Below are positions 15,215 to 40,310 of a stretch of 64,000 nt of DNA, in pieces. Made by a program: the position numbers and the translations under genes. Numbering within the stretch: position 1 is the first letter of the stretch; the number at the start of each line of letters is the position of its first letter. The notes beneath the pieces were generated by a model, which was not told the origin of the DNA, ran no database searches, and saw only the letters and a program-made list of their open reading frames with translations. The stretch covers positions 124,001 through 188,000 of the forward strand of contig JAHDVX010000002.1 of NCBI GenBank assembly GCA_023382455.1, written 5' to 3'. The stretch is from Flavobacteriales bacterium (lineage in GTDB: Bacteria; Bacteroidota; Bacteroidia; Flavobacteriales_F; PHOS-HE28).

Positions 15215-16591
15215 TCAGTGGAGCCATTCAAAATGTGCGGTGAAGTGGCGCAGGAAGTGCGGCTCCTCGGTGATCCGCATGCCCTTCACCCGGTCCCGCT
15301 CGGCCATGATGCCCTCGAAGGTCTCCGCCACGTACTCGATGTGGCTCTGCGTGTACACCCGGCGCGGGATGGCCAACCGGACCAGCTCCATGCGCGAGGG
15401 CTTGAGGGAGCCGTCCTCGGCGTAGGTGCCGAACATCACGGAACCGATCTCCACGCTGCGGATGCCGCCCAGGCGGAACAACTCGCACACCAGGGCCTGC
15501 CCCGGATAGTGGGCTGGAGGAATGTGCGGATACAGCTTCTTGGCATCCACGTACACGGCATGCCCGCCGATGGGCATCATCAGCGGCACGCCGATCTTGT
15601 TCAACTGCTCACCGAGGAAGGTAGTACTGCGAATGCGATAGTCCAGGTAGTGCGGGTCGAACACTTCTTCCAGGCCGATGGCGATGGCCTCCATGTCACG
15701 CCCGGACAGGCCGCCGTAGGTGGAGAAGCCCTCGGTGATGATCAGCAACTGCGTGCAGGCCTTGGCCAACTCCGCATCCCGGAACGCAATGAATCCACCG
15801 ATGTTGGCGAAGGCATCCTTCTTGGCGCTCATCACCGCACCATCAGCCAGGGCGAACATGCGCTGCGCGATGCTGCGGTAGGTCATGTCCCCCATGCCTT
15901 GCTCCCGGTTCTTCACGAACCAGCTGTTCTCCGCCACGCGGCAGCAGTCCAGCATCATGGGCACGCCGTGGCGCTTGCAGGTGGCGGACACTTCCTCGGC
16001 ATTGGCCAGGCTCACCGGCTGGCCGCCGCCGCTGTTGTTGGTCACCGTGAGGATCACCGCGCCCACATGGCCCTTGTGTTCGTTGAGCAGCCGCTCCAGC
16101 TCCTGCACATCCATGTTCCCCTTGAAGGGATGTTCCAACGCGGTATCCTGGCCCTCGGGGATCGGGATGTCGATGGCCGTGGCCCCGGTGAATTCGATGT
16201 TGGCCCGTGTGGTGTCGAAGTGGGTGTTGCTGATGAACACCTTGCCCTTGCCGCCCAAATGTCCGTAGAGGATGCGTTCACCCGCGCGCCCTTGGTGCGT
16301 GGGCAGCACGTGCGGCATACCCGTGAGGTCCCTCACCGCATGCTCCATACGCTCCCAGGAGCGCGATCCGGCGTAGGCTTCATCGCCCTCCATCACGCCT
16401 GCCCACTGGTGTGCGCTCATGGCGCTGGTGCCGCTGTCGGTCATCAGGTCGATGATCACGTCGCGTGAGCGGAGCAGGAAGGGGTTGTAGTGGGCCGCCT
16501 TTAATTGCTCCACGCGCTCTGCCTCCGTGCTGAGGCCGATGGGTTCCACGCTCTTGATGCGGAAGGGCTCGATGATGGTGCGGTGTTTCAT
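15215..16591 (-). CDS. tnaA: Tryptophanase (PLP-dependent beta-eliminating lyase)
   Basis: 458 residues from the ATG at 16591. It follows TnaA/TPL throughout: [33 protein letters not shown] lysine in VMSAKKDAFANIGGF. The residue that separates the two enzymes is readable: the segment is GIRSVEIGS, the tryptophanase form (EIGS), rather than MERG of tyrosine phenol-lyase. It should cleave tryptophan to indole, pyruvate and ammonia. A paralogue of the tyrosine phenol-lyase type lies immediately upstream on the same strand, 105 bases away. Confidence 0.88.
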   Translation of the reverse strand: MKHRTIIEPFRIKSVEPIGLSTEAERVEQLKAAHYNPFLLRSRDVIIDLMTDSGTSAMSAHQWAGVMEGDEAYAGSRSWERMEHAVRDLTGMPHVLPTHQGRAGERILYGHLGGKGKVFISNTHFDTTRANIEFTGATAIDIPIPEGQDTALEHPFKGNMDVQELERLLNEHKGHVGAVILTVTNNSGGGQPVSLANAEEVSATCKRHGVPMMLDCCRVAENSWFVKNREQGMGDMTYRSIAQRMFALADGAVMSAKKDAFANIGGFIAFRDAELAKACTQLLIITEGFSTYGGLSGRDMEAIAIGLEEVFDPHYLDYRIRSTTFLGEQLNKIGVPLMMPIGGHAVYVDAKKLYPHIPPAHYPGQALVCELFRLGGIRSVEIGSVMFGTYAEDGSLKPSRMELVRLAIPRRVYTQSHIEYVAETFEGIMAERDRVKGMRITEEPHFLRHFTAHFEWLH

Positions 16592-16696
16592 GGGGTGTAC
16601 GTGGATACGGTAGGATGCCTTTCTGATGAATGCCGGTGGGCGAATGGTGATCCGTGACGGAGGTTCACCTTTCACCCTCCCTTATCGCTGCGATGC

Positions 16697-18154
<1,458 letters not shown>

Positions 18155-18275: not shown

Positions 18276-19861
18276 TTAGGCAGTGGCCCCGTCAACAAGC
18301 GTGGCCACCCGGGGCTTCACCCCGCGGCGCTCGTTGTCCACGTTGAAATGCGCCCCGGTGTTGGCCGGTTCCTGCATGGCCTGTTGGCAGATGGCGCGGG
18401 CCACCAGCACCATGTCGCGTAGCTCCATCAGCGCGAGGGAACGTTCACCAGCCTGCCATTGCACGTCGGCCGTGTTCCGCACTTCCTCCAGTTCCCGCGC
18501 CGCAGTGCGCAGGCCCTCATTCTCCCGGACGATGCCGACGTTCGCCGTCATGCAATCGCGCATCCTGGACGTGGCGGCGGTCGTGGCCGCCTCCGCATCC
18601 ATCAACATGATCCGGCCCGTCACCGCATCGGAGGGCAATGGATCCCCATGCCGGTCCCCGGCCACGGCCGCGGCGGCATAGCGCGGGATCACCAAGGCCT
18701 CCAGCAGGGAGTTGCTCGCCAGCCGGTCGGCGCCGTGCAGCCCGCTCCCTGCGCATTCGCCCAGGGCAATAAGACCATCCAGGCCGGTGCGGCCGTCGGC
18801 ATCGGTGGCGATGCCACCGCAGAGGTAGTGGGCAGCAGGCATCACGGGGATCGGTTCCTTCATCGGATCCAGCCCGATGGACCAGCAGTGGTCCAGGATC
18901 ATGGGGAACTCCCGGGCGAAGCGGGCCTCCCCGATCCGGGTGGCGTCCAGCCGGACATGGTCCACCCCGGTCTCGCGCATCACCGCATGGATGGCCCGCG
19001 CCACGATGTTGCGCGGTGCCAGGTCGGCCATGGGGTGCCGCCCATCCATCAAGCGGCTGCCGTCCGGCATCAACAACACGGCACCGGCGCCGCGCACGGC
19101 CTCGCTGATCAGGAAGGTGTCCGCCTTGCCCGGCTCGTACAGGGCCGTGGGATGGAATTGCACGAATGCCATGTCCCGCAAGGGTACCCCGGCCCGGATG
19201 GCCATGGCCACCCCCGCGCCCGTGGCACCGGCCGGATTGGTGGTGTGGCGGTAAATGCGGCCGGAACCACCGGTGGCCAGCACGGTGACGTGGGCATGGT
19301 GCTCGGTGATGGCCCCTGTGCGTACGTCCATGGTGCGGATGCCCGTACACCGCCGGCCCTGCGGCCCTTCCTCCGTGAGCAGGTCCAGGGCCATCAGGGT
19401 TTCCTCCACCTTGATCCGTGGATCGCGCTTCACCTGCTCGTACAGCACGCGGACGAGCTCCGCACCGGTTCGATCGCCGCGATGCACCACGCGCGCCGCA
19501 CTGTGTCCGCCCTCGCGGGCCGCGTTCAAGCGCCCATCACCATCCAGGTCGAAGCGCGCGCCCTTGGCCAACAGCTCCTCGATGCTGGCGGCGCCTTCCT
19601 TCACCACGCGCTCCACCACGGCGGGGTCGCAGCGGCCGTCGCCTACGCGCAACGTGTCGTCGCGGTGCTTCTCCCAGGAATCCGCCGGGTGGATCACTGC
19701 GGCCACGCCCCCCTGGGCCGCATTGGAGTTGCTGGCCTGCGGGCCGGCCTTGCTCAGCAATTGGATCTCCACCTGCTGCCCGCGCGTCAACGCCGACAAA
19801 CGGTGCGCGAAGGCCATGCCGGCCACGCCGCTGCCCACCACGATCACTTTCCGTTGCACGC

Positions 19862-19865
<4 letters not shown>
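18276..19865 (-). CDS. nadB: L-aspartate oxidase
   Basis: 529 residues from the ATG at 19865. The FAD-binding start is KVIVVGSGVAGMAFAHRLS, followed by SNSNAAQGGVAA, the succinate-dehydrogenase/NadB family motif. HSAARVVHRGDRTG and GARFDLDGDGRLN are NadB landmarks, and GECAGSGLHGADRLASNSLLE binds FAD near the end. The enzyme oxidises aspartate to iminoaspartate for quinolinate synthase. Its start overlaps the nadA stop by four bases. No nadC is visible next to the pair. Confidence 0.93.
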
Positions 19866-20845
<980 letters not shown>

Positions 20846-20912
20846 AATGTACAAAGGTCCGGGGAGCTCCCCCCAGCGGAACTGACAAAACTCACTTCCC
20901 TCCAGGGCAGGG

Positions 20913-20920
20913 TAATTTTG
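20913..20920 (+). promoter_or_regulatory. -7 promoter element of the NRDE gene
   Basis: TAATTTTG matches TAnnTTTG, five bases before the start codon; transcription would begin at or very near the ATG. Confidence 0.5.
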
Positions 20921-20924
20921 GGCC

Positions 20925-21662
20925 ATGTGCCTGATCGCCTTGGCCTACAAGGCCCACCCGCGGTTTCCGCTGATCGTGGCGGCCAACCGTGATGAGTTCC
21001 TGGACCGGCCGGCCGAAGCGGCCCATTTCTGGCCGGATGCGCCGCAACTCCTCGCCGGCCGCGACCTGCGCGCCGGCGGCACTTGGCTGGGGATCACGCG
21101 AGGCGGATGCTTCGCGGCCATCACCAACTATCGGGAGATGCGTATGATCTTCCCCCAGGGTCCCTCGCGGGGAGGTCTGGTGCGCCAAGCGCTGGAGGGC
21201 AGCATCGACACCCGGACCAGCAGTGCCTATTCGGGCTTCAACCTGCTATACGGCCCCGTCAACGCGTTACGCTACCACAATAACATCGACGGCCGCGATG
21301 ATGAACTCGTGCCCGGCGTACACGGCCTAAGCAACCACCTGCTGGACACCCCTTGGCCGAAAGTGGTGAACGCCAAGGCCGCGATGACCGGGCTGCTGGG
21401 CGAAACCCACGAAGCGATCATCCACGTTCTGTTCAACCTGCTAGCGGATGGCGGTACCGCTCCCGACGAGCAGTTGCCGGACACCGGGCTTCCGTTGGAA
21501 ATGGAACGAGCGGCTTCGGCCGCCTTCATCCGCACGCCCAACTACGGCACGCGGTGCAGCACGGTGCTGGTGGTGGATGCCCATGGTAAGGTGTACTTCG
21601 AGGAGCGTACGTGGCCGGGAGGCGGGAAGGTTGTGGAGGAATTGCAACTGGCAACACATTGA
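20925..21662 (+). CDS. NRDE/TANGO2-family protein
   Basis: 245 residues. The N-terminal Cys (MCLIALAYK) and the name-giving NRDE motif in LIVAANRDEFLDRP mark the family, as do GGTWLGITRGG and ITNYRE. The end has the conserved CSTVLVVDAHGKVYFEERTW. TANGO2 homologues have been linked to heme transport and to lipid homeostasis in eukaryotes; the Ntn-hydrolase-like fold suggests an N-terminal cysteine nucleophile. Function in bacteria is not settled. A hairpin terminator follows. Confidence 0.88.
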   Translation: MCLIALAYKAHPRFPLIVAANRDEFLDRPAEAAHFWPDAPQLLAGRDLRAGGTWLGITRGGCFAAITNYREMRMIFPQGPSRGGLVRQALEGSIDTRTSSAYSGFNLLYGPVNALRYHNNIDGRDDELVPGVHGLSNHLLDTPWPKVVNAKAAMTGLLGETHEAIIHVLFNLLADGGTAPDEQLPDTGLPLEMERAASAAFIRTPNYGTRCSTVLVVDAHGKVYFEERTWPGGGKVVEELQLATH

Positions 21663-21720
21663 ACGGGCGCCGCAATGCCCAGGGGCGGGGCGTCCACTTT
21701 CCACACCGCTACCACGCAAA

Positions 21721-21746
21721 GCGGCCGGAACCCTCGTCCCGGCCGC
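21721..21746. terminator. Bidirectional hairpin between NRDE gene and pseudogene
   Basis: GCGGCCGG and CCGGCCGC pair perfectly around a ten-base loop between two convergent genes. There is no strong T tract. Confidence 0.5.
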
Positions 21747-21773
21747 CCCTGATCGTTCTGAGCAACGGTATGC

Positions 21774-22427
21774 CTACCCGCACTTGCTGCTTCCGCAGCT
21801 GCGGCACTTCAGGCAGCCTTCCTCGTAGTTAACGCCTCCGCTGTCGCCGCAGTCGTTGCACTTGCGGCCGCTGGCGCTGGTCATCTTCACCACGTTCGTG
21901 AAGGTCCCTGCCGGCAGGATGATGGTGCCGGAGCCGGAATAGGTCCGCTGGATCGTATTGGGGCCGTTGTTGTCCGAGTAATAGTCCGTGAAGACGTCCC
22001 CGTATGAGAAGGGGAATTGCAGGATCTGGGCCGGTGGGGAGTAGATGTTGGGGTCACTGGGAATGTGCAGGACCAAGGTGTTCACTTCCGTGGTGTCCAC
22101 CGTGAAATAGCCGTAGTCCGTTCCGAGCAAGGCACTGCTCAACGACCACACGCAATTGGCCTCCGGAAAGAAGTCCGCAAAGGGTGAACCTTGCGCCGGG
22201 GCTACGGACATGATCCCGGCTGGCAACAAGGTGGTGGATGCAAGGTCCCAGGTTTGGTCCGCGCCGTCGGTGATCAGGTCCAGGTCATCGGCATTGACCA
22301 AGATGGACACGGCCGTGGTGACGCCTTCCGGGTTGTATTGGTCGTACTACAGGATCACTTGGGCATTCAAGGCGGCCCAAGGACATGCGGTGAGCATCAT
22401 GGGACTGAAGCGCATGGGGCGGGTCAT
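21774..22427 (-). pseudogene. Broken secreted-protein gene whose 3' end is a copy of the NrdJ zinc-finger tail
   Basis: Reading from the ATG at 22427 gives a signal-like start (MTRPMRFSPMMLTACPWAAL, then NAQVIL), an in-frame TAG at 22347-22349, and then about 155 codons of a beta-rich exported protein (YDQYNPEGVTTAVSILVNAD; NVVKM at the end). A CAG-to-TAG change would explain the stop. From 21881 down, the frame continues into TSASGRKCNDCGDSGG and EEGCLKCRSCGSSKCG, the C-terminus of NrdJ. The last 104 bases match the nrdJ 3' end at 98 of 104 positions. A GTG at 22310 could restart translation but without the export signal. No T9SS domain remains. A functional fusion is possible but less likely. 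Confidence 0.75.
21778..21881 (-). repeat. 104-bp direct repeat, copy A (NrdJ tail)
   Basis: By direct alignment, 98 of 104 bases equal those at 23524-23627 in the same orientation, 1746 bases apart. Most differences are at third codon positions, so the copy was made some time ago and kept its reading frame. Confidence 0.9.
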
Positions 22428-22477: not shown

Positions 22478-23071
22478 TCAACGGCGCGGAGGGTGGTCGG
22501 CAACGGCCGCATGGTCCGGACAATCGGTTCGCAGTTCGGCCACGGTCATGTCGGCCCGCATGAGCAGGCAGCGATGCTTGCTGCGCTTGTCGCCCTGGTA
22601 GTGTTTGCAGGTGAAGCAGAGGCGCTGCACGCGCAGATCACCCGAATGCACCAGGGCTTCCAGCACGCGCATCAAGGCGATCAGGGTTCCCTCCTTGTCA
22701 GCCTGGGGCAGCAATCCCAAGGCATCCCGGAGCGGGGTGGCCCTGGCATGTGCAGCGGCTTTCCGCCCGATGGCCGTAAGGCGCAAGGCGTGGCTGCGGC
22801 CATCCGCGGGGTCGGGCCTGCGCAAAAGGAAGCCTCGTTCCACCAACACGCGCACGCTGTCGCTGGCCGTGGGGCGTGAGATCTGGAGGGCATCCGCCAG
22901 CAAGGCCACGCCCACAGGCTCCGTGCCGCGGTCGGCCACGAAGCCCAACACGCGCAACTGCAGCGCGCTCAGGTCCTGGGCCATGCCCGTGCCCCGGCGC
23001 AAGGCCAAGGCCACCTCGCCGATGCGTTCCAGCACCTTGGCGATGTGGGCATCGGTGGGGGTGGTGGGCAT
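22478..23071 (-). CDS. MarR-type winged-helix regulator with Cys-rich C-terminal extension
   Basis: 197 residues. Residues about 1-140 are a MarR domain: LSALQLRVLGFVADRG, recognition helix SRPTASDSVRVLVERGFLLR and wing DPADGRSHALRLT. After the dimer helix, residues about 150-187 form an added Cys cluster: CFTCKHYQGDK, HRCLLM and RTDCPDH, four cysteines with nearby histidines that could bind zinc or an iron-sulfur cluster. The gene lies downstream of, and on the same strand as, a CxxC thiol protein, whose promoter carries a perfect inverted repeat. The two probably form a self-regulated redox operon. Confidence 0.85.
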   Translation of the reverse strand: MPTTPTDAHIAKVLERIGEVALALRRGTGMAQDLSALQLRVLGFVADRGTEPVGVALLADALQISRPTASDSVRVLVERGFLLRRPDPADGRSHALRLTAIGRKAAAHARATPLRDALGLLPQADKEGTLIALMRVLEALVHSGDLRVQRLCFTCKHYQGDKRSKHRCLLMRADMTVAELRTDCPDHAAVADHPPRR

Positions 23072-23153: not shown

Positions 23154-23390
23154 TCAGCCCTTTACCTCGGCCATGGTGGCCCCGTGGTTGATGTGCAGCA
23201 CGTCGTGGCCGAGCACCAAGGCCGGTACACTCTTTACTCCGGCGGCCTCGGCCTCGGCAATGCGCCCCCGGGCCTGACCCAAATGAACGATCTCCACATC
23301 GTACCTGTTCCGGTCGATCAGTTCGGTGAGGCGCTCTTCGGCATTCACACAAACAGGACACCCGGCATGATAGAAAACGGCTTTTTCCAT
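23154..23390 (-). CDS. Thioredoxin/glutaredoxin-like protein with CPVC motif
   Basis: 78 residues from the ATG at 23390 (a TTG two codons upstream is less likely). KAVFYHAGCPVCVNAEERL is a thioredoxin-fold active site and SVPALVL gives the cis-proline. It is a small thiol-redox protein of the NrdH/glutaredoxin size; partner unknown. It precedes the Cys-rich MarR gene by 82 bases and has its own promoter with an operator-like inverted repeat. It also follows the ribonucleotide reductase gene on the same strand, so a role as electron donor to NrdJ can be considered, but that is inference from position. Confidence 0.85.
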   Translation of the reverse strand: MEKAVFYHAGCPVCVNAEERLTELIDRNRYDVEIVHLGQARGRIAEAEAAGVKSVPALVLGHDVLHINHGATMAEVKG

Positions 23391-23416
23391 GTTCAATGGT
23401 TTTTGAAGGTTAGGCG

Positions 23417-23438
23417 CAAATATAGTTAGGTTTCCTAA
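23417..23438 (-). promoter_or_regulatory. Promoter with overlapping MarR-type operator
   Basis: On the minus strand TATATTTG (23424-23417) is an exact TAnnTTTG element, 26 bases before the thiol-protein start. One base behind it lies TTAGG-AAA-CCTAA (23438-23426), a perfect 13-base inverted repeat in the -7/-33 spacer. A dimeric winged-helix protein bound there would block the polymerase. Confidence 0.65.
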
Positions 23439-23464
23439 TTACACGCCCCGGGACCATCCAGAAC

Positions 23465-23519: not shown

Positions 23520-26135
23520 TCAGCCGCACTTGCTGCTGCCGCAGCTGCGGCACTTCAGGCAGCCCTCCTCGTAGTACACGCCTTCGCTGTCGCCGCAGTC
23601 GTTGCACTTGCGGCCGCTGGCACTGGTGCCATCAGGGATGTAGCGGCTGAGTGCGCGTGCCACGCCGTTCTTCCACGTGTTGAGCGTCTCATCATAGAGG
23701 TTGAGGTTCACCACGGTGTCCACCACGTGAGGCACCGAGACGCCTTGGCGCAACATGCCGCTGATGAGGATGGCGTAGTTCCAGTACTCCTTGTTGAAGC
23801 TGCGGCTCAAGCCTTGGATGGTCACTTGGTAGCCTTCGTTGTCCTCGTACTGCAGGTCGTAGATGTTCTTCTTGGTCTTGGCGTCCTTGCGCTTGATCAC
23901 CCAGCCCTTTTCCACCCACTTGGGCAACTGGAACACGCCCTTGGCCTGCCCGGTGAAGATCTCGTAGGGTTTGCCGTCCAGCTTGCCCACCACGGCCAGC
24001 CAAGGCTCGGTCTCGTTGTTGAACCGGATCACGTCCGCTTCCAGCACATCCGGGCGCTTCACGTTCACCGGGGCTTCGTCCTTCTTCTTGTCTTCCTTGG
24101 CCACCAGCACACCGCTGCGCGATCCATCGCGGTAAACGGTCACCCCCTTGAGGTTGAGGTGCCAGGCCGCGCGGTAGATGTCGCCCACGAGTTCCGGGGT
24201 GACGGTGCTGGGCAGGTTGATGGTGCTGCTGATGCTGTGGGTGGTGAATTTCTGCACGGCGGCCTGAAGGCGGATGCGGTGGTGCCAATCGATGTCCGGA
24301 GCGGTGCTCTTGAAGTAGGGGCTTTCCTCCACGTTGGTCTTGCCGGTGACGTTCATCCAATCGGTGATGCGCGGATGGTGCACGGTGAACTCCTCCCACT
24401 GGTCGCCCATGGCATCGGTGAAGGAGACCTTCTCCTTCGGGGTGTTGGGCACCAGTTTGCGGCGGCGGGTATAGCCCAGCATGTACACGGGCTCGATGCC
24501 GCTGCTGGTGCGGGTGAGCAAGCTGAGCGTGCCGGTGGGTGCCACGGTGCTGATGCTGATGTTGCGGCGGCCGTGCTTCATCATGCGCGCATGGAGCTCA
24601 GGCAGCTCATTCTCCAGCATGGCGGTGAACTCACTGGTCTTCTCGATGGCGGGATCGAAGCCGGTGAAGGCCCCGCGCTCGATGGCCAGGTCGATGCTGC
24701 TGTTGAACTCGGCCTCGCACTTGGTGCGCATGATGTGGGAAACGGCCTCCACGGCCGCCTCGCTGTCGTAGGCCAGGTTCATGGCGGCCAGCGCATCGGC
24801 CAGGCCGGTGAAGCCCAGGCCCGTGCGGCGACCCTTGCGACCGGTGTCGCCCAGCAGCTGCCAGGTCTCGCGCTCCACGCGCTTCACATCCTCGGGCTCG
24901 GGGTCGTTGTCGATCTTCTGGAGGATGCGCTCCACGGCCTCCAGTTCCAGGTCCACCAGGTCGTCCATCAGGCGCTGGGCCTCGTAGGTGACCTCAGCCA
25001 GGCGCTTGTGGTCGAAGCGGGCCTTGGGGGTGAAGGGATCGGTGACGAAGGAGTAGAAGTTGATGGCGATCAAGCGGCAGCTGTCGCCACCCTGCATGGC
25101 GATCTCACCGCAGGGGTTGGTGCTTTCGTTCTGGAAGCCCGGGTAGATGGAGGACGTGGAATACTTGTGCTGGCGGTCCCAGAAGATGATACCGGGTTCG
25201 GCCGTGTTGTGCGCGCACTTGATCAGCTTGTCCCACAGCTCGCGTGCACGCACGGTCTTGGTCACCATGGGCTTGTCGCTGTCGATGGGCCATTTGTGGG
25301 TGTACTCGCCGTCCTCCTCCACGGCCTTCAGGAAGGCGTCGCCCACGCGCACGCTCACGTTCGCGCCGGTCACCTTGGTGAGGTCCTGCTTGATGGTGAT
25401 GAAGTGCTCCACATCGGGGTGGGCGATATCCATGGTGAGCATCAGGGCGCCGCGGCGGCCTTTCTGGGCCACCTCGCGGGTGGTGTTGCTGAAGCGCTCC
25501 ATGAACGATACCGCGCCCGTGCTGGTGCGTGCGGCATTGCTCACGGCGGCCCCTTCGGGGCGCAGGCTGCTGAGGTCGAAGCCCACACCGCAGCGGCGCT
25601 TGAAGAGCTGGGCCAATTGCTGGTCGTTGCGGAAGATGCCGCCGTAGCTGTCCACCGGGGCGGGGATCACCACGCAGTTGGAGAGGGAGGCCAGGCGGGT
25701 ATGGTCGCCCAAGGAGGCCATCACGCTGCCCTGCGGCACGATGTCGCGGAAGCCGTCGAAGAGCTTGAAGATGCGTTCCTCATCCAGCACCTCGCGTTTC
25801 TGGCCATAGGTGGAGAGCATGGCACGTTTGGCGGCGGGTACAGCCTTGTAGTTGCGCTCAATCCGCGCGAACTCGCGGGCCATGCGCCAGTGGGTGCCTT
25901 CAGGCGTGAGTTCCAGCAACTCACCTTTATGGTTGCGCAAGGCGTACTTGTTGATCCAAGTGGTGGCCGCCAGCTCATCCTGGTTGAAGTAGGCCAAAGA
26001 GGCGGCCAAGGCCTCTTCCTGGGTGAACACCTGGGTGGGGAGCACCGGTTCGTGGGAAATGGGGGCGGCAGACATCTTCTCGGTCTCGGCGGCTTCGAAA
26101 AGCATGGCTTGTGGGATCGTGTTATCGTGTGGCAT
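23520..26135 (-). CDS. nrdJ: Adenosylcobalamin-dependent ribonucleotide reductase (class II)
   Basis: 871 residues from the ATG at 26135; an ATG at 26105 would drop ten. The class II catalytic barrel is complete: LSNCVVIPAP with the first redox cysteine, RRCGVGFDLSSLRP, MERFSNTTREVAQKG, the NPCGEIAMQGG motif with the radical cysteine, and PTGTLSLLTRTSSGIEP. The last 34 residues are a Cys cluster, KCNDCGDSEG then EGCLKCRSCGSSKCG, which reloads the active site in NrdJ enzymes and may bind zinc. It makes dNTPs without oxygen but needs vitamin B12. I see no cobalamin riboswitch upstream. A 104-bp copy of its 3' end sits 1.7 kb downstream in a pseudogene. Confidence 0.95.
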   Translation of the reverse strand: MPHDNTIPQAMLFEAAETEKMSAAPISHEPVLPTQVFTQEEALAASLAYFNQDELAATTWINKYALRNHKGELLELTPEGTHWRMAREFARIERNYKAVPAAKRAMLSTYGQKREVLDEERIFKLFDGFRDIVPQGSVMASLGDHTRLASLSNCVVIPAPVDSYGGIFRNDQQLAQLFKRRCGVGFDLSSLRPEGAAVSNAARTSTGAVSFMERFSNTTREVAQKGRRGALMLTMDIAHPDVEHFITIKQDLTKVTGANVSVRVGDAFLKAVEEDGEYTHKWPIDSDKPMVTKTVRARELWDKLIKCAHNTAEPGIIFWDRQHKYSTSSIYPGFQNESTNPCGEIAMQGGDSCRLIAINFYSFVTDPFTPKARFDHKRLAEVTYEAQRLMDDLVDLELEAVERILQKIDNDPEPEDVKRVERETWQLLGDTGRKGRRTGLGFTGLADALAAMNLAYDSEAAVEAVSHIMRTKCEAEFNSSIDLAIERGAFTGFDPAIEKTSEFTAMLENELPELHARMMKHGRRNISISTVAPTGTLSLLTRTSSGIEPVYMLGYTRRRKLVPNTPKEKVSFTDAMGDQWEEFTVHHPRITDWMNVTGKTNVEESPYFKSTAPDIDWHHRIRLQAAVQKFTTHSISSTINLPSTVTPELVGDIYRAAWHLNLKGVTVYRDGSRSGVLVAKEDKKKDEAPVNVKRPDVLEADVIRFNNETEPWLAVVGKLDGKPYEIFTGQAKGVFQLPKWVEKGWVIKRKDAKTKKNIYDLQYEDNEGYQVTIQGLSRSFNKEYWNYAILISGMLRQGVSVPHVVDTVVNLNLYDETLNTWKNGVARALSRYIPDGTSASGRKCNDCGDSEGVYYEEGCLKCRSCGSSKCG
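23524..23627 (-). repeat. 104-bp direct repeat, copy B (nrdJ 3' end)
   Basis: This is the parental copy inside intact nrdJ, encoding the C-terminal Cys cluster. It matches 21778-21881 at 98 of 104 positions, in the same orientation; the thiol-protein and MarR genes lie between the copies. Confidence 0.9.
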
Positions 26136-26305
26136 GGAAATGGACCAAATCGGGAAGGCCAAAGCTCCACCAACACATCCAAGAAACCACCCCTTCCGCC
26201 GATCGATCATCCACAGCGTTATGAACGATCATTGTCAACCGGGCACCGGCATGAAGTTACCACCAAAACAGCTGTTGATAACGCTCGCCGTCCGACCGGA
26301 AAACA

Positions 26306-39473: not shown

Positions 39474-40310
39474 ATGAATTACATCCAGTACATGAATGCA
39501 ATCGGCGCAAAAGCCGATGAAGGCAGTCGATTTGAGCACTTTCGAAATCTCGTCGTAGACGTTATTGCGGAAGAATTGAGCTCATACATCCTCGAGACCC
39601 ATCACAAGAAGGGAAATGAATACCTACGACTGATTGGGAAGGGTGCGCATACGATGGATATGCGAAGCTTCTTTGACGGTTGCCGCACATCGTTGGATAA
39701 CTTCAGAAGCTCACCAATTTTTAGGTTGCTACGCGGTGAAGGTGAATCGAGCAAATTCTTATTCTATGTTCAATGCGTTTTCAGTCTTTCTCGATTGAAA
39801 TCAACTGACAAGGAAAAGGTAGCTTGTCGAATTGAGGAGGCTGCAATGGAATCATCATTCCCTATGGCAATCCTTAGGGACCGTCTTGACTATTTTATAG
39901 TTCCAAGTGCAACGCCTGAAATCGAAAGAATTGCATTTGAACCGACTCTGGCATGGCTGAACGCTTATCCGGAAGCAAAGATCCCGTTGTTGCGGGTGCT
40001 TCGCGACAGAGTCGACGCAAGTAAGGAACGACACGTCCTTGATGATTTGCGCTTATCCTTGGAATTGTTATTGAAGTATATATTGAAGAATCACAAATCA
40101 CTCGAAAAACAAAATGACCCACTCGGATCATATTTGAAGCAACAAGGATGCTCGACCGAGATCAACAACATGTTTCGTGAATTGCTCAATTATTTCGGCA
40201 AGTACCAGAACGAACACGTCAAGCATAACGAGGACATCAACTCAAGCGAAGTTGATTTCCTAGTGATTCTCTGCATCTCTTTTATGAGACTTCTTGCTCA
40301 ATACGCATAG
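39474..40310 (+). CDS. AT-rich orphan gene, helical protein of unknown function
   Basis: 278 residues, three bases after the E1 stop, with a strong ribosome site (AAGGAGTGAGGA) that overlaps that stop. Base composition is clearly lower in GC than both neighbours and codon choice differs (many TTG, AAA, GAA), a sign of transfer. The protein is all-helical by appearance. Its end, YQNEHVKHNEDINSSEVDFL followed by a hydrophobic helix, resembles the C-terminal part of abortive-infection/HEPN-like proteins with a polar HxxHN patch, but I cannot assign a family. No mobile-element ends were found. Confidence 0.7.
   Translation: MNYIQYMNAIGAKADEGSRFEHFRNLVVDVIAEELSSYILETHHKKGNEYLRLIGKGAHTMDMRSFFDGCRTSLDNFRSSPIFRLLRGEGESSKFLFYVQCVFSLSRLKSTDKEKVACRIEEAAMESSFPMAILRDRLDYFIVPSATPEIERIAFEPTLAWLNAYPEAKIPLLRVLRDRVDASKERHVLDDLRLSLELLLKYILKNHKSLEKQNDPLGSYLKQQGCSTEINNMFRELLNYFGKYQNEHVKHNEDINSSEVDFLVILCISFMRLLAQYA

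Follow-up and report, generated by a model that had tools for sequence, protein, structure and literature searches.

A stranded 3′ end of nrdJ as the probable source of a zinc-cluster fusion in a Flavobacteriales genome, with comparable gene-end scars elsewhere in its genus

In homology-facilitated illegitimate recombination (HFIR) of transforming DNA, reviewed for Acinetobacter, S. pneumoniae, and P. stutzeri, one end of the incoming DNA joins within homologous sequence and the other at a short homology (junction microhomology is typically 3 to 10 bp), giving foreign insertions of about 1 kb (PMC3240628). HFIR has also been proposed as the mechanism of 3′-end displacement in Vibrio T6SS and Rhs loci, where a module enters behind a conserved anchor and the old 3′ end is pushed downstream, as in the T6SS clusters of Vibrio cholerae, with their displaced 3′ ends of effector genes and their arrays of orphan immunity genes, and in the orphaned 3′ regions at Rhs loci (PMC5361080). 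Small variable segments that differ between strains, attributed to illegitimate recombination, likewise place gene-sized pieces of DNA within a conserved backbone (PMC2884548). The locus described here, at which the 3′ end of a ribonucleotide reductase gene (nrdJ) recurs at the end of a nearby secreted-protein gene, is like these systems in the respects just given and departs from each of them. HFIR has been described with deletions (PMC3240628), whereas here recipient DNA appears to have been kept, hence the stranded gene end, and the cases are natural scars rather than the products of an assay. The Vibrio T6SS and Rhs cases (PMC5361080) concern toxin/immunity loci under diversifying selection, whereas those reported here concern housekeeping genes (nrdJ, fabD, uvrD, and an acyl-CoA dehydrogenase gene) and unrelated cassettes. 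The repeats at the variable segments (PMC2884548) are mostly under 30 bp, whereas here they are gene ends of 66 to 295 bp.

The window, by which we mean the whole 64-kb stretch of DNA that was analyzed, is part of a 3.43-Mb genome in 51 contigs (G000) and was compared with 45 genomes of the genus, a search at family and order rank having given no further genomes. Sister to G000, with 100% support in the NrdJ tree, is G017, and the NrdJ proteins of the two are 93% identical. In the window, an intact nrdJ encodes an adenosylcobalamin-dependent (class II) ribonucleotide reductase (positions 23520..26210, minus strand; NCBIfam TIGR02504, E = 5e-143, above the cut-off; Pfam PF02867), and its own 3′ end, here called tail A, occupies 23523-23627 on the minus strand, followed by a TGA stop at 23520-23522. 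A second such end, tail B (21774..21881, minus strand), comprises the last 35 codons of nrdJ plus a TAG stop and closes a different frame (21774-22427, minus strand), which opens with a signal-like stretch of 26 codons, is interrupted in frame by a TAG, and continues with 155 further secreted-protein codons, TSASGRKCNDCGDSGGVNYEEGCLKCRSCGSSKCG, and the stop. Self-BLASTN of the window aligned 21778-21881 to 23524-23627 at 94.2% identity over 104 bp (98 of 104 positions), reproducing the in-frame match that the first-pass annotation had reported; this pair is the top non-self match of the window and was separately listed as repeat D2. The same annotation was right that the Cys cluster is conserved, that the tail is the NrdJ C terminus, and that the join is sharp: every cysteine of the NrdJ tail is retained in tail B, the reading frame is that of nrdJ, and the change from one gene to the other falls at 21881/21882. 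Searched genome-wide, the 35-aa tail matches only nrdJ and tail B well (the next match has E = 0.46), and at the level of sequence a chance resemblance of tail B to the nrdJ tail is excluded. Among the window's 52 gene ends, no other has a near-identical stray copy. Just past tail B lies a terminator-like hairpin (21719..21748, minus strand; RNA fold z = -4.65); the hairpins after nrdJ score -4.01 in the window and -5.10 in G017.

The body of the fused frame is the 5′ part of a secreted-protein gene (21882..22427, minus strand), with a signal-like start and a beta-rich domain, but truncated and carrying a nonsense codon. Searched separately from the tail, which leads only to nrdJ and to itself genome-wide, the body finds full-length relatives at 36 to 45% identity. 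These belong to a family of secreted proteins spread throughout the genus; over their ~290 to 360 aa, a signal-like start leads into a beta-rich domain, and a T9SS type A sorting domain forms the C terminus. The sorting domain (TIGR04183) was found in the two full-length relatives that were scanned, in line with the original description of the frame as a secreted-protein gene, whereas the window copy has the nrdJ tail instead: its family sequence ends at NVVKM, and the end of the domain and the T9SS sorting domain are missing. In addition, the in-frame TAG (22347..22349, minus strand) stands at an alignment column filled by Q or some other amino acid in relatives. Because of this stop after 26 codons and the loss of the sorting domain, no exported protein is expected from the frame, and, as judged from its sequence, the gene cannot be an exported protein in its present form. 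The retained cysteines and the open frame from 22346 to the stop might be taken to indicate a functional, chimeric, zinc-binding exported protein, and a new chimeric protein was among the outcomes that the first-pass annotation entertained. With the nonsense codon after residue 26, the lost sorting domain, and changes private to tail B that run at two replacements to one silent (detailed below), such a function seems to us exceedingly improbable. An orthologue with the same junction, which a conserved chimera might be expected to have, was found neither in the 45 genus genomes nor in GTDB contigs, the latter containing only paralogues of the host frame (40 to 44% identity), none with the tail.

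The surroundings of tail B are those of nrdJ in other genomes. In G017, 127 bp separate nrdJ from a convergent TANGO2-family gene, behind which lie nadA and nadB; the nrdJ-TANGO2 order is the same in G003 and G005, and likewise in G032, with 997 bp between the two genes. The TANGO2-family gene of the window (20925..21662, plus strand; PF05742), identified by synteny with the convergent flank of nrdJ in G017, G003, and G005, has tail B beside it instead of nrdJ, at a distance of 118 bp. At the sequence level, tail B ends in GGAAGCAGCAAGTGCGGGTAGG, with which the nrdJ ends of G017, G028, and G003 agree at 32 of 32 positions, 4 of them beyond the stop, and the TAG stop of tail B is shared with most relatives, whereas the nrdJ of the window ends in GGCTGATCC with TGA, where relatives' nrdJ ends matched over only 27 nt at 96%. 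Further downstream of tail B, the intergenic sequence gave no BLAST match beyond the 4 bases after the stop and is too diverged to align with G017. Since tail B stands in nrdJ's place beside TANGO2 and carries the 3′ end found in relatives, it reads as a stranded nrdJ 3′ end. The first-pass annotation had instead proposed fusion by short-range duplication and recombination, in which the secreted-protein gene, 1.7 kb downstream, would have acquired a copy of the neighboring nrdJ end. The recombination part of this proposal stands, and two near-identical tails on the same strand, 1.7 kb apart, are what local copying would leave; however, the stop and the four following bases of tail B are those of other species' nrdJ and not the neighbor's, and only by chance would the copy have come to lie as far from TANGO2 as nrdJ usually does. 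Copying of the adjacent tail is thus improbable in view of the TAG, the 32-base identity, and the place beside TANGO2.

Tails A and B differ at seven positions within 35 codons. The bases of tail B at tail sites 6, 63, 90, and 105, all silent, are variants common in relatives and were therefore inherited rather than accumulated after copying. Private to tail B among close relatives are the replacements E15G and Y18N and a silent GTG>GTT at codon 17, that is, two replacements to one silent change over very few sites. Selection on the graft had been suggested from the mostly silent character of its differences; with those silent differences common in relatives and the private changes looking neutral, at least over these few sites, that argument is removed.

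Between nrdJ and tail B, the window contains a thioredoxin-like gene (first of the block; 23154..23396, minus strand; PF13192), a marR-type regulator gene (second; 22478..23071, minus strand; PF12802), and, as the third gene, the first part of the T9SS-secreted-protein gene. The thioredoxin-like gene is absent from G017 and present in 17 of the 45 genus genomes, and marR lies downstream of it in all 17. The trees of both genes lack resolution, that of marR does not place G000, and no donor was found. A palindrome-like sequence, AATTAGGAAACCTAACTATATTTG (23415-23440), lies 5′ of the thioredoxin-like gene and is conserved there in G012, G022, and G034; it is possibly a MarR operator.

The order nrdJ-thioredoxin-marR also occurs in G012, G022, and G034, so these genes may long have been neighbors, with the block possibly lost from G017. 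On this alternative history, nrdJ-thioredoxin-marR would be ancestral, an nrdJ end with TANGO2 from a relative would have been joined into the secreted-protein gene, and G017 would have lost the block by recombination between tails. It gains further from a mosaic pattern in the tail of G017, in which the first five differing sites have the bases of tail A and the last five those of tail B, so that one crossover inside the tail could relate the two arrangements, in either direction; the silent variants that tail B carries at sites 6 and 63 are those of most relatives and not those of G017. Sliding identity along nrdJ gave no clear switch of ancestry. The TANGO2-side flank (18276-20926) is mosaic as well, since the window's NadB is 67 to 68% identical to that of G003 and G005 versus 54% to that of the sister G017. 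What tells against an ancestral block is that, at two other loci of G000, the uninserted order is common to the sister and to all the more distantly related genomes compared. This favors insertion, and we therefore hold the ancestral-block history to be rather unlikely. Both histories, insertion and ancestral block, make tail B the TANGO2-side nrdJ end rather than a duplicate of tail A. On the same side of the window, at 15215-18085, two adjacent paralogous lyase-like genes (44% identical) are putatively, by sequence similarity, of the tyrosine phenol-lyase/tryptophanase type.

The join lies at ACCAGCGCCAGCGGC (21867..21881, minus strand), which reads TSASG and at which the closest members of the secreted-protein family read [TA]S[ST]SG. 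Compared with ACCAGCGCCAGCGGC, these closest relatives, among which the window's parental secreted-protein gene is not represented, are alike at 11 to 13 of 15 nt at the join. Matches of at least 12 of 15 to this sequence occur at 0.05% of positions in the family's genes, which we take as background, yet are found in 4 of 20 relatives at exactly the join column. That the secreted family resembles the TSASG of NrdJ exactly at this point would account for a sharp, in-frame junction, and a join at this short homology would produce an in-frame fusion without selection.

The reading that we prefer, and consider probable, is that tail B is the 3′ end of nrdJ, stranded by DNA that joined in behind nrdJ in an HFIR-like manner, that the fusion is decaying, and that the same process has acted behind other genes. 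DNA with the thioredoxin-like, marR, and T9SS-type secreted-protein genes would have joined in behind nrdJ, on one side by homologous recombination within nrdJ and on the other by illegitimate recombination at the short homology between TSASG (nrdJ) and [TA]S[ST]SG (the secreted-protein gene). Either by keeping or by receiving it, nrdJ would have ended up with a complete 3′ end (tail A), and tail B, the end that had lain beside TANGO2, would have ended up beyond the block, continuing the frame of the broken secreted-protein gene. The fusion would give no exported protein and would be decaying, and several other genes of the genus would have undergone the same process. The donor, the order of the steps, and the homologous anchoring of one side belong to this reconstruction, as does the view that G017 has kept the original state of nrdJ and did not reach it by a later loss through recombination between the two tails. 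Among known mechanisms, HFIR fits best. Loss of recipient DNA is not evident, the neighboring genes and the old gene end being retained, and, because classical HFIR deletes recipient DNA, we call the process HFIR-like only and do not claim membership.

The arrangement recurs at nrdJ in other members of the genus. In G066 (nine contigs), nrdJ is followed by a 1.9-kb cassette (a secreted-protein gene and a J-domain protein gene) and then by a 295-bp nrdJ remnant at 91% identity; secreted-protein and MBL-rhodanese genes that stand directly after nrdJ in G018 follow the remnant, not nrdJ, in G066. The present nrdJ end of G066 scores best with G024, and the remnant scores best with G007 and G062, as would be expected if the present end had been imported, although the similarity of native versus imported copies to relatives conflicts between cases. 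In G015, a decayed nrdJ tail lies 0.3 to 0.4 kb behind nrdJ, and ~110-bp tandem repeats (L080 3440-3850) are present between the two.

A control sampling of G000 and G066, 400 kb of each, turned up stray 3′ ends of further genes instead of a clean background. Those in G000 belong to an acyl-CoA dehydrogenase gene (C2:94157-94236 and 96464-96543; 80 bp, 86%; with a T9SS-secreted-protein gene between, and absent from the sister G017), an LptD-like gene (C2:35604-35733 and 39625-39754; 130 bp, 96%; with 3.9 kb and two secreted-protein genes between), and a gene for a 551-aa protein (66 bp, 85%). Those in G066 belong to fabD (158 bp, 91%; a secreted beta-propeller-like gene between), a TonB receptor gene (116 bp, 88%; a T9SS gene between), and uvrD (84 bp, 95%). 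Three cassettes were confirmed to encode T9SS sorting domains. More strays were encountered for the acyl-CoA dehydrogenase gene in G009 with G058, G025, and G032 and for the LptD-like gene in G019 and G021. For nearly all strays of the G000 and G066 samples, the end of the repeat is at most about 12 nt from the stop codon, and the stray copy, on the strand of its gene, is found downstream; the intact gene is always the upstream one. The genome of G066 also contains, near C1:425000-446000, a cluster of large, related genes with numerous repeated 3′ ends.

Synteny at these genes parallels that at nrdJ. The acyl-CoA dehydrogenase stray of G000 is followed after 130 bp by a 392-aa ORF, and in G017 the dehydrogenase gene itself is followed after 94 bp by the same gene (84% identity), an uninserted order that is also found in G005, G029, G060, G007, and G010. 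The transporter gene after the fabD stray of G066 sits 35 to 74 bp behind fabD in G058, G062, G009, and G015, and the TonB receptor gene after the LptD-like stray of G000 is directly behind the LptD-like gene in G017, G031, and G020. All five strays tested (two of nrdJ and three others) adjoin the gene that stands immediately behind the intact copy in relatives, which is a further point against copying of an adjacent tail. An insertion relative to an uninserted relative is seen at the acyl-CoA dehydrogenase gene, the LptD-like gene, fabD, the nrdJ of G066, and, with its direction less certain, the nrdJ of the window. A mis-assembly specific to the nrdJ-TANGO2 locus is unlikely, since the same architecture occurs at different genes and in other assemblies.

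The constant upstream position of the intact gene and, in nearly all cases, the closeness of the repeat's end to a stop codon (about 12 nt or less) recall elements that integrate at 3′ ends. Such scars would be produced by a site-specific integrase directed at the 3′ ends of genes, its element supplying a replacement 3′ end. However, no PF00589 domain occurs near nrdJ in G000 or G066 and none is apparent in the cassettes read, the repeat starts have no motif in common (the nrdJ cases themselves start differently, at 35 versus about 96 codons), and at least six different genes are targets, which makes an integrase quite improbable. Additional samples from G024 and G009 (200 kb each) and from the outgroups G054 (200 kb) and G047 (126 kb) contained no strays, those of the outgroups being small, so that their zero count is weak evidence. 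A rough count in the G000 and G066 samples gave ~2 repeats at gene 5′ ends versus 8 at 3′ ends; as the 5′-end counterpart was only roughly counted, a bias toward 3′ ends is not established. A further reading, which we hold to be distinctly doubtful, is that the genus has an active, recurrent route that adds cassettes, often of T9SS-secreted-protein genes, directly behind housekeeping genes and at the same time replaces their 3′ ends; the mechanism might be a dedicated one with a preference for gene 3′ ends and not chance repair of incoming DNA.

The fusion in the window is best regarded as a dead relic, and its worth is that of a marker: a stranded end beside its ancestral neighbor shows the place and manner of an insertion. 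For annotators, it is a warning against taking a short frame that terminates in an NrdJ-like zinc cluster for a new zinc protein. Scars of this kind, direct repeats of 66 to 295 bp that end at a stop codon, are easy to find by sequence and hence usable for counting; they could serve to count and date additive insertions and to identify donors in uncultured Flavobacteriales, and they could test whether the secreted-protein genes of these bacteria turn over mainly by such insertions.
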